A stretch of 64,000 bases of DNA from Natrialba taiwanensis DSM 12281 (GCF_000337595.1 NZ_AOIL01000009.1:4343-68342); one strand, 5' to 3'. Shown: positions 60,317 to 64,000, counted from the stretch's first letter. Numbers and translations: made by a program. Notes: generated by a model from the sequence alone, not told the origin.

Positions 60317-61783
60317 TCAGCCGAACATCTGCCGCATTACCGGATGCATTTCCATTAACTGCTCTTCGGCTATTTCCTCGTATAGCTTGTACGTGATACT
60401 CACCGTAAGCAAGAGCGATGTGCCAGAGACGCCGCCGATCGTTCCGAGCATATTCGCGAGCACAGCAAGCAACCCAACAAGAACACCACCAATGATAGCT
60501 AACTGCGGGATATAGCGCTCAAGAACTCGTTCCATCACCTTGGAATTCTGCCGGAAACCAGGAATCTGCATTCCGGAGTTCAGAATCTGATTGGCCGTTG
60601 CCTTGGGACCCATATCGGCGGTCTCGACCCAGAAAATCGAAAAAATCGCCCCGCCAGCGATCATGAATACGAGATCGATGAACACACGTAGTAAGATCTG
60701 CCACGGGGAATGACCGGCAGCACCTGCCCACCACATCCACTGTTGAGGGCTGTGAATCGGATTGAGGTAATAGAACAGGCCGTCGATGGGCTGGCCATTC
60801 GAATTATAGACGCCGAGCCACGTCGGCAAGCCGTCGCGCAACTGACTGTGCAATAGCTGGCCGAAGAACTGGATATTGGACTGGATTGCCCGGACAAAGA
60901 TCATCGGTAGAACGCTTGCGTAGATGAGTTTCACCGGAAACTTCCCGCGAGCGCCTTTTACCCGTGCATGCGAGAGGGGGATCTCGACGCGAACACTTTC
61001 GGCATACACGACAAGTCCGAAGATGAGGAGGGTTGTGAACAATGGAAGGAGATTTCCAACCCCGAATATCAGCGACTGAAGGCCGTATGCTGTAAATGGG
61101 GATCCCACTGAAACATCACCGATCAGTATTCGAACCCACGTCGTGAGGATGCCGGAATCCTGTCCGGTAATACCGGGGACCGCGATGAGCCCACCAACGA
61201 GTTTCTGGCTTACGCCGGCGACAATGAACAGGCCGAGACCGCTCCCAACACCCCACTTGCTGATGACTTCGTCCATAAGCAGGACGAGAACGCCGCCAAC
61301 AGCGATTTGGAAGAAGATCAACCACTTGATCACTCCCAGTGAGACCCCCAGTGTTTGAGCGAGTTGCGGGTCTGCGGGAAGGAACCCGCCAGCGAATACC
61401 ATTGGCAGTCCGGTAAGGCAGATCATTACGAGGACGAGAAACTTTTGTAATCCCTGGTACAGCGCCTGATCGCGGGGATCCTCCGTATCAAGCCCGAGCA
61501 AATTCGCCCCGCCAAGCAACTGCAAGACGATGCTCGCTGTCACGATCGGACCGATTCCAAGTTGAAGAACCGTCCCCTGACCGCCCGCGAGTATCGATCG
61601 GAATTGAGCGAAGATATCGCTTCCCTGGTTTGCACCAAAAAGGTAGATATTAGACAGGAAGAAGTACAGCACAAGTGTTCCCGCCGTCCACGCGAGTTTC
61701 CGTCGAAAAGGAACGTGGCCCTCAGGGCTACGAACGGCCGGCATCCGGACAAGGATAGGCTCAGCGGTTTCTTTCCAACTCAT
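60317..61783 (-). CDS. secY: SecY preprotein translocase subunit, outside the ribosomal operon
   Basis: A 488-residue SecY/Sec61-alpha with ten membrane helices, the protein-conducting channel. It opens MSWKETAEPILVRMPAVRSP and has the canonical segments VPFRRKLAWTAGTLVLYFF, GIGPIVTASIVLQLLGGA, WGVGSGLGLFIVAGVSQ, and the cytosolic-loop region VRVEIPLSHARVKGARGKFP that contacts the ribosome. It is complete and apparently functional. In haloarchaea the essential secY lies in the spc ribosomal-protein operon after rpl15 and before adk. Here there is no ribosomal gene or adk next to it; neighbours are an unknown membrane protein and a DUF106 insertase. Its codon use is A+T-leaning like the surrounding low-G+C island. 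This looks like a second, accessory SecY. Confidence 0.93.
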   Translation of the reverse strand: MSWKETAEPILVRMPAVRSPEGHVPFRRKLAWTAGTLVLYFFLSNIYLFGANQGSDIFAQFRSILAGGQGTVLQLGIGPIVTASIVLQLLGGANLLGLDTEDPRDQALYQGLQKFLVLVMICLTGLPMVFAGGFLPADPQLAQTLGVSLGVIKWLIFFQIAVGGVLVLLMDEVISKWGVGSGLGLFIVAGVSQKLVGGLIAVPGITGQDSGILTTWVRILIGDVSVGSPFTAYGLQSLIFGVGNLLPLFTTLLIFGLVVYAESVRVEIPLSHARVKGARGKFPVKLIYASVLPMIFVRAIQSNIQFFGQLLHSQLRDGLPTWLGVYNSNGQPIDGLFYYLNPIHSPQQWMWWAGAAGHSPWQILLRVFIDLVFMIAGGAIFSIFWVETADMGPKATANQILNSGMQIPGFRQNSKVMERVLERYIPQLAIIGGVLVGLLAVLANMLGTIGGVSGTSLLLTVSITYKLYEEIAEEQLMEMHPVMRQMFG

Positions 61784-61989
61784 AAATCCCGTTCAGCGTG
61801 GCAACGTAATTCACAACAATGCGACCGTCGGAGACAGACGGCAGTACTGTTTCCTCTCATGGATTGTGATAGCGTTGTCACTCTAGCGCGGTTGGGCGAC
61901 AGCGAAACGAGACTATTCGCTCCCTGCCACCGTAGCTAATACGACTGAGTGACGTTCGAATAGAGGTTGATGAGTCGGGGACAAAAATA

Positions 61990-62679
61990 CTACTGTTTTG
62001 GCTGTGGCAGCGGTTCTTCGGGCGGCACTGCTTCTAGTATGCGTAGTGAGTGACGGCGACCGGCTCGATCAAATGCCCCAACGGATGTTTCATCCCACGG
62101 CGGGACAGCAACGAAGACGATCTCATGCAAGTCGTCACGTTTGGTCAATCGAAGCTCCGAAAACGGGTGCGTGACGAATCGTCCCTGCGTGCGCTGAGGC
62201 GGTGTATGCAGATCAACTCCGAAGACGGAACTGACCGAGTTCGGCTGTTCTGGCAGATACAGATGGGTGAAAACTGGCGTCATGTCGAATACGCCATCAG
62301 CACCGTTCAACTCGCCTGCAGGTGTCGTTGCAAGACCGATTGAAAGCGAGTTCGGCTCAGCTTGACGGGCAAGTTGAAAGAGCGTCTCGAGAAGAGACCG
62401 TGTGATGTAGATTTCCCGTTTGGGACGGGTGGGTAGGTGGTCGGTATCCGATACTGGTTCTGCAGATTGTTGTGTATGGTTCTTGAAAACAGCACCAGTG
62501 ACGGTGATTACACCGACTATTCCGAGGTCTAGATCAGTCCACATTCCCAATCCGGACACGGTCTGCTTCGACACGATATCGAGAAGAATCCCGATCGCTC
62601 CCGAAATCACGAGGAGCGTCCCAACGAGAAATACGGTCGTTGAAAGGGGTGATTCGAAGCGGTCACTGATCGAGGGCAT
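61990..62679 (-). CDS. membrane-anchored protein with possible degenerate JAMM-like domain
   Basis: A 229-residue protein. Two hydrophobic segments at about 13-35 and 47-66 anchor the N-terminus, and a soluble domain of about 145 residues follows. That domain contains EIYITRSLLETLFQLARQ, YLPEQPNSVSSVFGVDL, GRFVTHP, LRLTKRDDLHEIVFVAVP and GAFDRAGRRHSL. THP followed by a T-x-x-D-type segment resembles the histidine/Ser/Asp part of JAMM/MPN metalloprotease folds, but the complete HxHx7Sx2D motif is not visible. It may be an inactive MPN-like protein. Located between secY and the DUF106 insertase gene on the same strand. Function unknown. Confidence 0.5.
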   Translation of the reverse strand: MPSISDRFESPLSTTVFLVGTLLVISGAIGILLDIVSKQTVSGLGMWTDLDLGIVGVITVTGAVFKNHTQQSAEPVSDTDHLPTRPKREIYITRSLLETLFQLARQAEPNSLSIGLATTPAGELNGADGVFDMTPVFTHLYLPEQPNSVSSVFGVDLHTPPQRTQGRFVTHPFSELRLTKRDDLHEIVFVAVPPWDETSVGAFDRAGRRHSLRILEAVPPEEPLPQPKQ

Positions 62680-63023
62680 AGTGAAACCAACCTAACGGTG
62701 CGAGTTATACGTTCCTGTTCACACTCGCGAAAACACCTGCTCGTTGACAAGGCCGCGAAAACGTACAATGTGAGATGGTGCTGTGGGTCCCGGTGACTGC
62801 GGAAACGAATAGAGCCAGCAAGGGAAGGCTAAGCTACCGTTCACGTGACACCATCTGCAGGTGCCGCACTCGAGACCCCCATCTGATTTCAAACGGCGTT
62901 GGCATCCGACGCTGAGCCGCCGAACGATCCGTATCTGTGAAAATGAGCACCTCACCGATACAACGAGTAATCAGGGCTACCGAGCCGGGAGAGAGTACTT
63001 CGGAAACAATCACTTAGTCGTTG
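62680..63023. other. intergenic, nothing recognised
   Basis: About 340 bases between the membrane-anchored protein and the DUF106 gene, long for an operon interior. A cysteine-rich frame on the minus strand (62719-62955) is not a family I recognise. Confidence 0.45.
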
Positions 63024-63923
63024 TTACGATGTGGCTGCGGAGGTGGATCGGGGGTTGAATATTTTCCGGATGATCTGCCGGGAAGCCATCGAACAGAGGA
63101 AGTACCAGACGATCCACGTCGACATCGGCCCAAAGAGAGCCTCTTGCCACGACACAGCACCAGCAATCGGAACGACCATTCCCGATTCTGAAACTCCCAA
63201 GTGACCGCCCCGCACCTTCCATCGGAGCCAGAGAAACACTGGAACTGTCAACAGCATTATCCAGACCATCGGTCGAAGCTGCACTTTGAACATCCCCAGC
63301 TGGTCACTCGCGGCTTCCATCTGTTCTTCCTGGATCTGCTCAAGCGCCTCCTCATCACCGCGTTCCTTGGCCGCCTCCCTCCGTTCTTTCAAGTCGTTCA
63401 TCCGTTCCTGATACTGCTGGAGTTTCTCGGTATCCATCAGCCTCGATTGCAAGAGGGTCGAATAGAGTCCGGTCACTATAGCAAGCAACAGTATCACAAT
63501 ATGAAACGGAAGGTGCGCTGTGATCGGCGCAAGCAGGACGTTATCGAACGATGCGATGAAATCTCGAATACCAGTGTTCCAATAGCCGGTGAAGAGAGCC
63601 AGCGCAGTTATCCCCGCCGCTTTATCGTACCAGTCCCACGACACGGACTCAATGTCGATGCTACTGCTCTCGTTGGAGACGGAACGATCGGTTACTCCTA
63701 ACCGCTGTTCCAGTTCGTCGGGGTTCGCCAGTGTAAATCCGGTTCCCCCCGCGACAAGCACTTCTTCTCGGATCAACCGTCCCCACTGACTACTCGATAC
63801 TGCATCACTCACGTCACTCCACTGAAGCTCTTCAGTACCGCCGTCGCTCCGCTCGAGGATAATAGCGATCGACTCACGCATCGCTGGATTCCCAATAAAC
63901 TCCTCTAACTGCTCTCCGGGCAT
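63024..63923 (-). CDS. DUF106/EMC3-type membrane insertase (Oxa1 superfamily)
   Basis: A 299-residue protein of the DUF106 family, archaeal relatives of EMC3/TMCO1 in the Oxa1/YidC superfamily that insert membrane proteins. A cytosolic N-terminal winged-helix-like part (about 1-100, including VSDAVSSSQWGRLIREEVL) is followed by a helix at about 115-135 and one at 150-175. Then comes a charged coiled-coil loop rich in Glu, Lys and Arg (about 178-225), and two more membrane segments. The last of these is before FLCSMASRQIIRKIF. Start ATG 63923 was chosen because the frame upstream is not family-like. In haloarchaea a DUF106 gene normally lies in the spc/adk cluster; here one is beside a second secY on low-G+C DNA, supporting an accessory translocon set. 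Confidence 0.85.
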   Translation of the reverse strand: MPGEQLEEFIGNPAMRESIAIILERSDGGTEELQWSDVSDAVSSSQWGRLIREEVLVAGGTGFTLANPDELEQRLGVTDRSVSNESSSIDIESVSWDWYDKAAGITALALFTGYWNTGIRDFIASFDNVLLAPITAHLPFHIVILLLAIVTGLYSTLLQSRLMDTEKLQQYQERMNDLKERREAAKERGDEEALEQIQEEQMEAASDQLGMFKVQLRPMVWIMLLTVPVFLWLRWKVRGGHLGVSESGMVVPIAGAVSWQEALFGPMSTWIVWYFLCSMASRQIIRKIFNPRSTSAATS

Positions 63924-64000
63924 ACAGTTACTTCGATGGTTGAATCGGACGGTTATCAACTCTTCCGTTTAGATCGTTCCAGATAGACCTTCCAAGCAGG
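63924..64000. other. window edge, no gene
   Basis: Short upstream region of the DUF106 gene. Nothing further visible. Confidence 0.4.

Follow-up and report, generated by a model that had tools for sequence, protein, structure and literature searches.

In the haloarchaeon Natrialba taiwanensis DSM 12281, three genes in a row on the minus strand of a 64,000-nucleotide stretch of contig NZ_AOIL01000009.1 (assembly GCF_000337595.1, positions 4343-68342; the whole stretch is hereafter the window) code for a second pair of membrane-protein translocation factors and a third protein lying between them. These are a complete accessory SecY, here called SecY2, an insertase of the DUF106 family, here called DUF106-2, and a membrane-anchored protein with a JAMM/MPN-type fold, referred to as the middle protein. 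We propose that the trio may be an island-borne accessory translocon and insertase for a subset of membrane proteins, sharing its SecE with the housekeeping channel, an explanation to which we give about an even chance of being correct. In a fuller version, which we regard as possible but doubtful, it would be a dedicated archaeal accessory translocon (SecY2, an EMC3-like insertase and a tethered MPN scaffold), spread by plasmids together with its transporter clients, in which canonical SecY was recruited more than once and converged on a residue adjacent to the pore ring.

A profile search of the whole genome, which comprises 4.64 Mb in 70 contigs, found exactly two SecY proteins (PF00344) and two DUF106 proteins (PF01956). 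The other pair lies on contig C42, where secY follows rpl15 and has adk downstream, as is usual in the spc region, and where the second DUF106 gene is also located. The preliminary description of this DNA had proposed a second translocon/insertase pair, and had named a relocated, single-copy essential set as the alternative; this alternative is rejected because both genes occur twice, and the proposal of a second pair is upheld. SecY2 is 68% identical to the SecY of its own genome, and up to 75% identical to others. No gene for a ribosomal protein, and no adk, cmk or truB, was found near the trio, and the three genes have a G+C content of 54%, compared with 62-66% across the 24-56 kb region of the window. 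Transcription runs from DUF106-2 through the middle protein to secY2 (Table 1); the start of DUF106-2 was placed at the ATG at 63923, and the longest open reading frame would begin at a TTG at 63959. The same-strand row away from the ribosomal operon, as initially described, is therefore confirmed, and the arrangement is more than chance, since other genomes have the genes in the same order and orientation. In the closest sampled relative in the genus, Natrialba aegyptia DSM 13077, the trio proteins are 98-99% identical.

SecY2 has the features of a SecY/Sec61-alpha protein, that is, matches to the family models, full length, a plug domain and a hydrophobic pore ring. PF00344 gives 235.1 bits against a cut-off of 32.2, and the curated cut-offs of NF006341 and TIGR00967 are also exceeded (316.2 against 300 bits and 328.9 against 253.6 bits, respectively). 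Mapping from the residues that we take to form the pore ring of M. jannaschii SecY leads to positions I77, V81, L183, I187, I295 and L459 of SecY2, all of them hydrophobic, and the stretches SHARVKGARGKFPVK and GMQIPGFRQN, presumably ribosome-facing cytosolic loops, are nearly identical to those of the canonical protein. Furthermore, the ratio of non-synonymous to synonymous substitution rates (dN/dS) between close relatives is 0.04-0.07, and SecY2 is under strong purifying selection. Exactly one SecE was found in each of the 13 genomes of our sample that carry the trio, using TIGR00327, a model that also matched in the Haloferax volcanii control; the Pfam model PF00584 gave no match, but it was silent in the same control and is thus uninformative. 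Because each of these genomes has only one SecE, SecY2 presumably shares the housekeeping subunit.

The assignment of DUF106-2 rests on PF01956 (155 bits against a cut-off of 27.1). It is about 45% identical to canonical DUF106, and all DUF106-2 proteins form a single clade apart from the canonical ones (support 100/99). An AlphaFold2 (AF2) model built from 11 sequences had a mean predicted local confidence (pLDDT) of 57, too uncertain to be used for the three-helix insertase fold. Arg234 (codon 234 of 63024-63923), which lies close to where the second predicted membrane helix ends, is present in 30 of 30 accessory proteins, the position being Tyr in 23 of 25 canonical ones. There are also accessory DUF106 types other than this clade, as judged from EMC3/TMCO1 proteins on plasmids of Haloferax gibbonsii and Halalkalicoccus jeotgali that are 31-35% identical to DUF106-2, the former encoded among surface-glycan genes and the latter on a conjugative plasmid. 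In two genomes of one genus (L095 and L099), divergent DUF106 genes occur as a pair on opposite strands, with about 1.2 kb between them; one belongs to the accessory clade and the other sits on a long branch within the canonical clade.

The middle protein had been described as a two-helix membrane protein of unknown function. The membrane anchor stands, a second hydrophobic stretch at residues 43-61 being less certain, but the kind of protein can now be named, as its C-terminal part of about 140 residues has a JAMM/MPN fold. No Pfam family scored above its cut-off. Searched against the PDB, the family profile had AfJAMM as its sole match (E 1.8e-5), and AfJAMM was also the closest solved structure to the AF2 model (Foldseek 3.7e-7; VIA-align Z 14.3, with a root-mean-square deviation of 1.8 over 98 residues), so that sequence profile and structure match agree on the fold. 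In this model pLDDT is about 90 over much of the C-terminal domain, about 65-70 in the helix at residues 11-36 and below 50 in residues 37-85. The nearest fold matches were AfJAMM and MPN domains of the proteasome and the COP9 signalosome (CSN); no EMC8/9 chain is among the best 50, and its presence further down is not excluded. On the residue roles that we assume for the Glu plus HxH...D zinc site of AfJAMM, that site is incomplete: V169 takes the position of His67 and S111 that of Glu22, with H171 and D182 retained. Since two active-site residues are replaced, the domain is probably not a protease, and more likely serves for binding or as a scaffold.

The suggestion that this protein is unique to the translocon holds in part. 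The domain itself is nearly universal: 365 of the 392 genomes of our sample encode a stand-alone protein to which the last 140 or so residues of the middle protein are about 50-55% identical. However, the membrane-anchored fusion beside SecY2 is specific, as the N-terminal helices are confined to the SecY2-linked form and the stand-alone homologues lack them. These stand-alone pseudo-JAMM proteins of about 140 residues (homologues of 62032-62418; loci L020, L023, L025, L033 and L195-L265) belong to no Pfam family although nearly all haloarchaea have one; in them His171 and Asp182 are invariant and Val or Ile replaces the first His of the JAMM site.

Table 1. Coordinates of the accessory genes and their parts, counted from the first nucleotide of the window.
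Feature	Position	Strand	Basis
secY2, complete accessory SecY, 488 aa	60317..61783	-	PF00344 E 1.5e-69; plug PF10559 E 1.3e-10
Phe296 codon of SecY2	60896..60898	-	Phe in all 18 accessory and Leu in all 71 canonical haloarchaeal SecY; aligns with M. jannaschii SecY L261, beside pore-ring I260
Middle protein, 229 aa, with membrane anchor and pseudo-JAMM (MPN-fold) domain	61990..62679	-	alignments, homologues, model, fold matches
Predicted membrane helix of middle protein, residues 11-36	62572..62649	-	AF2 model and hydrophobic sequence
JAMM/MPN-fold domain of middle protein, residues 88-216	62032..62418	-	AfJAMM profile match, Foldseek, VIA-align
DUF106-2, accessory EMC3/TMCO1-family insertase, 299 aa	63024..63923	-	PF01956 E 2e-45; second genome copy; own clade

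The distribution of the trio was determined in 392 genomes, often drafts, which are a part of the larger haloarchaeal order. SecY was found in 386 of them, with more than one match in 16, and a complete second SecY in 13; in every one of these 13 genomes the whole trio is present. The three other extra matches were discounted, one being an incomplete copy that lies 7 kb from the canonical gene, one a short fragment, and one a canonical gene split over two contigs. The trio genomes are two Natrialba, three Natrinema (altunense, gari and pallidum), four of the Haloarcula group (including argentinensis, sebkhae and japonica), one metagenome-assembled genome (QH_7_65_31) and three from the genus group bearing the Haloferax type. 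Beyond this sample, the trio occurs in Halohasta litorea and Haloferax massiliensis, and it is carried by named plasmids in Haloferax lucentense, Hfx. alexandrinus and Haloarcula pelagica, so that Natrialbaceae, Haloferacaceae and Haloarculaceae are all represented. The co-occurrence that had been put forward as a check is thus found. DUF106-2 has a wider range, 27 of the 392 genomes, and can occur without the other two. We rejected a viral origin, as the patterns used against viral_contigs found no relatives of any of the three proteins and a search of phages no SecY2 match, and also a defence system, since the trio had no PADLOC hit and the weak scores of a neighbouring protein, ASRP, against SMC-like ATPases (e.g. 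LmuB) probably reflect similarity shared among coiled-coil ATPases. A different case is that of Natronorubrum bangense (NZ_CP031306.1 248294-269745), where a run of ribosomal-protein genes from L2 to L15, canonical secY and adk are carried by an element that is labelled an 828-kb plasmid, so that the spc region is on a secondary replicon.

The phylogeny of SecY2 differs from that of its partner. The accessory SecY copies of Haloarcula are sister to canonical Haloarcula SecY (support 100/99), the remaining accessory SecYs make up another clade (88/94 in the careful tree and 97 in a wider quick tree), and a single accessory clade is rejected (approximately unbiased (AU) test, p 0.004). The trees give SecY2 two or more separate entries into the cassette, but DUF106-2 a single clade, and consequently the cassette seems to have gained a SecY anew, as though one were wanted there. 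One residue, at position 296, fully separates the accessory from the canonical proteins, and it is the only one to do so (Table 1). Phe296 lies in transmembrane helix 7 (TM7), on one side of the lateral gate, beside I295 of the pore ring, and is present in both SecY2 lineages.

The trio belongs to a wider island. The genes for RdfA (PF21811, E 4.5e-39, 134.7 bits against a cut-off of 27) and for ASRP, an archaea-specific SMC-related protein (NF045487, 461.7 bits against a cut-off of 300), lie 2.1 kb upstream of DUF106-2, outside the window, with a PHO4/PiT transporter gene in between; they are an adjacent pair separated by 2 bp. Wherever the sequence around a trio extends far enough, both are found within about 10 kb, and they are as conserved nearby as the trio itself. 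RdfA of the cassette type (at least 63% identity) is present in 17 of the 392 genomes, 16 of which have DUF106-2. A small zinc-finger gene is often part of this recurrent gene community; a gene of about 73 codons after ASRP was considered as a SecE and rejected, because its product, with CxxC pairs, looks like a soluble zinc-finger protein and because Natrialba lacks the gene. Multi-spanning transporters abound in the trio neighbourhoods, among them APC permeases with universal stress protein (Usp) domains, HPP, MATE, PiT, ABC, SulP and TrkH proteins and P-type ATPases. The plasmid island of Halobaculum magnesiiphilum has RdfA, ASRP and DUF106-2 without SecY2, and a remnant of the middle protein (residues 1-91) suggests loss of the part coding for the middle protein and SecY2. 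Short open reading frames with one unread base, resembling transposase remnants, adjoin the RdfA gene beside the island (L005 13105-13419).

In the mechanism that we propose, a module carried on a horizontally spread haloarchaeal island would supply SecY2, which with the only SecE of the cell would form a working channel, and DUF106-2, a member of the EMC3/YidC superfamily, would act beside it as its partner insertase. We infer that the three proteins form a complex, in which the non-catalytic, membrane-tethered JAMM/MPN domain of the middle protein would be a scaffold that ties SecY2 to DUF106-2, or that recruits clients or ribosomes. The clients would be a subset of membrane proteins, most likely the multi-spanning transporters encoded around the trio (APC-Usp permeases, HPP, PiT, ABC and MATE), and the linked RdfA/ASRP pair might set the conditions under which the module is used. 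The specialisation for a group of membrane or exported proteins that had been suggested earlier fits the transporter-rich neighbourhoods, but the client group itself is deduced from the neighbours only.

Several observations weigh against such a module. Its expression, interactions and phenotype are predictions from its genes, and with gaps of 206 and 344 bp between the genes a single operon is only putative in Natrialba taiwanensis. In Halohasta DUF106-2 is apart from the middle protein and SecY2 and on the opposite strand, and in Haloferax at least 1.4 kb lies between them. DUF106-2 with RdfA/ASRP is also found without the middle protein and SecY2, and therefore SecY2 is dispensable to the island. 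The neighbouring transporters differ from locus to locus, and their enrichment, seen in a comparison with 57 control loci that also speaks for joint function, was obtained with queries drawn from the trio loci themselves, so that this test is partly circular. Finally, the Haloarcula accessory copies follow the accessory state at 16 of the 55 sites at which the other accessory copies differ from canonical Haloarcula SecY, and the two origins of SecY2 could be a single one followed by patchy gene conversion in Haloarcula. Conversion in blocks was rejected, as in the Haloarcula copies none of the 40-residue blocks showed a clearly greater similarity to the other accessory SecYs. Phe296 may thus have arisen twice, which would argue for selection on residue 296, or the host gene may have replaced most of the sequence of the Haloarcula copies, though not all of it; either way, a SecY seems to be wanted at this locus.

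Other functions, or none, might explain the same genes. SecY2 and DUF106-2 could be general spares that replace the canonical pair under stress, with no client specificity, and the closeness of SecY2 to canonical SecY (68-75% identity), its intact pore ring and the universal stress and metal or ion transport genes that are common neighbours all agree with this. However, it does not account for the strict association with RdfA/ASRP and with a pseudo-JAMM protein anchored in the membrane, nor for the age of DUF106-2, which is a separate, old clade and not a recent duplicate, and we consider this reading rather unlikely. SecY2 might instead be a resistant channel that takes over when an inhibitor, halocin or toxin blocks canonical SecY, Phe296 being the resistance change. 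That the sole fully separating residue adjoins I295 at the lateral gate in both lineages, and that Haloferax and Haloarcula pelagica have genes for MATE efflux and TetR proteins near the trio, would suit such a bypass of the target, but the conserved DUF106-2 and pseudo-JAMM partners are left unexplained by it, no MATE gene occurs in those Natrialba and Natrinema neighbourhoods that were examined, and we know of no Sec inhibitor of haloarchaea; it seems quite improbable. A further possibility is that the genes have no joint function and stay together only through shared plasmid transfer, as their location on plasmids or low-G+C islands with varied cargo might suggest. This we find very improbable: the gene set survives rearrangement in Halohasta and Haloferax, in three families and under purifying selection, and the SecY position was refilled at least once according to the trees. 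Halohasta has the same genes in a rearranged order, which argues for joint function rather than for a mere lack of time to separate.

The recurrence of the trio among transporter genes on plasmids and islands of unrelated haloarchaea suggests a specialised, as yet undescribed pathway of membrane-protein biogenesis; in the open-licence literature we found no published description of this gene set or of any accessory archaeal SecY translocon. If our proposal of an accessory translocon is correct, Haloferax and Haloarcula, which are genetically tractable, offer a natural pair of SecY proteins sharing one SecE, accompanied by an insertase of its own and a pseudo-JAMM protein, in which the way SecY specialises for its clients could be tested, and would let one ask whether DUF106 works with SecY in archaea.

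Among the nearest known systems is the canonical haloarchaeal SecYE-beta/DUF106 of the spc region, with which the accessory set shares its pore-ring positions and the identities given above (68-75% for SecY, about 45% for DUF106). It differs in its separate locus, its separate DUF106 clade, the change from Leu to Phe, the ties to a pseudo-JAMM protein and to RdfA/ASRP, and the lack of a second SecE. Gram-positive bacteria are known to have accessory SecY translocons, and their accessory Sec system (SecA2/SecY2/Asp) is similar in its working, with a second SecY beside the housekeeping one and a small cluster of extra partners, but the haloarchaeal partner is an insertase and not an Asp protein, and haloarchaeal SecY2 is not a member of the Gram-positive family (TIGR02920, 20.8 bits against a cut-off of 249.6). 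Archaea have been reported to lack SecA (PMC2910488). In Haloferax volcanii, RdfA and its SMC-like neighbour Sph3 are required for rod shape, and genes of these two kinds mostly lie side by side, genomes having several paralogues of them (PMC10869688). The RdfA/ASRP pair of the island belongs to the same families, but consists of distinct paralogues tied to the accessory translocon, and SecY is not mentioned in that study. A further resemblance is to the eukaryotic endoplasmic reticulum membrane protein complex (EMC), in which EMC3, an insertase of the DUF106 superfamily, is accompanied by EMC8/9, partners that have an MPN-type fold and lack the JAMM active-site residues. DUF106 and EMC3 are held to be related (PMC8887752). 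We regard this likeness as a working analogy rather than as membership; the haloarchaeal MPN-fold protein, unlike that of the EMC, is itself anchored in the membrane and linked to a SecY, and the set, if it works as we propose, would bear on whether the pairing of an EMC3-type insertase with an MPN subunit is older than, or separate from, the eukaryotic complex.

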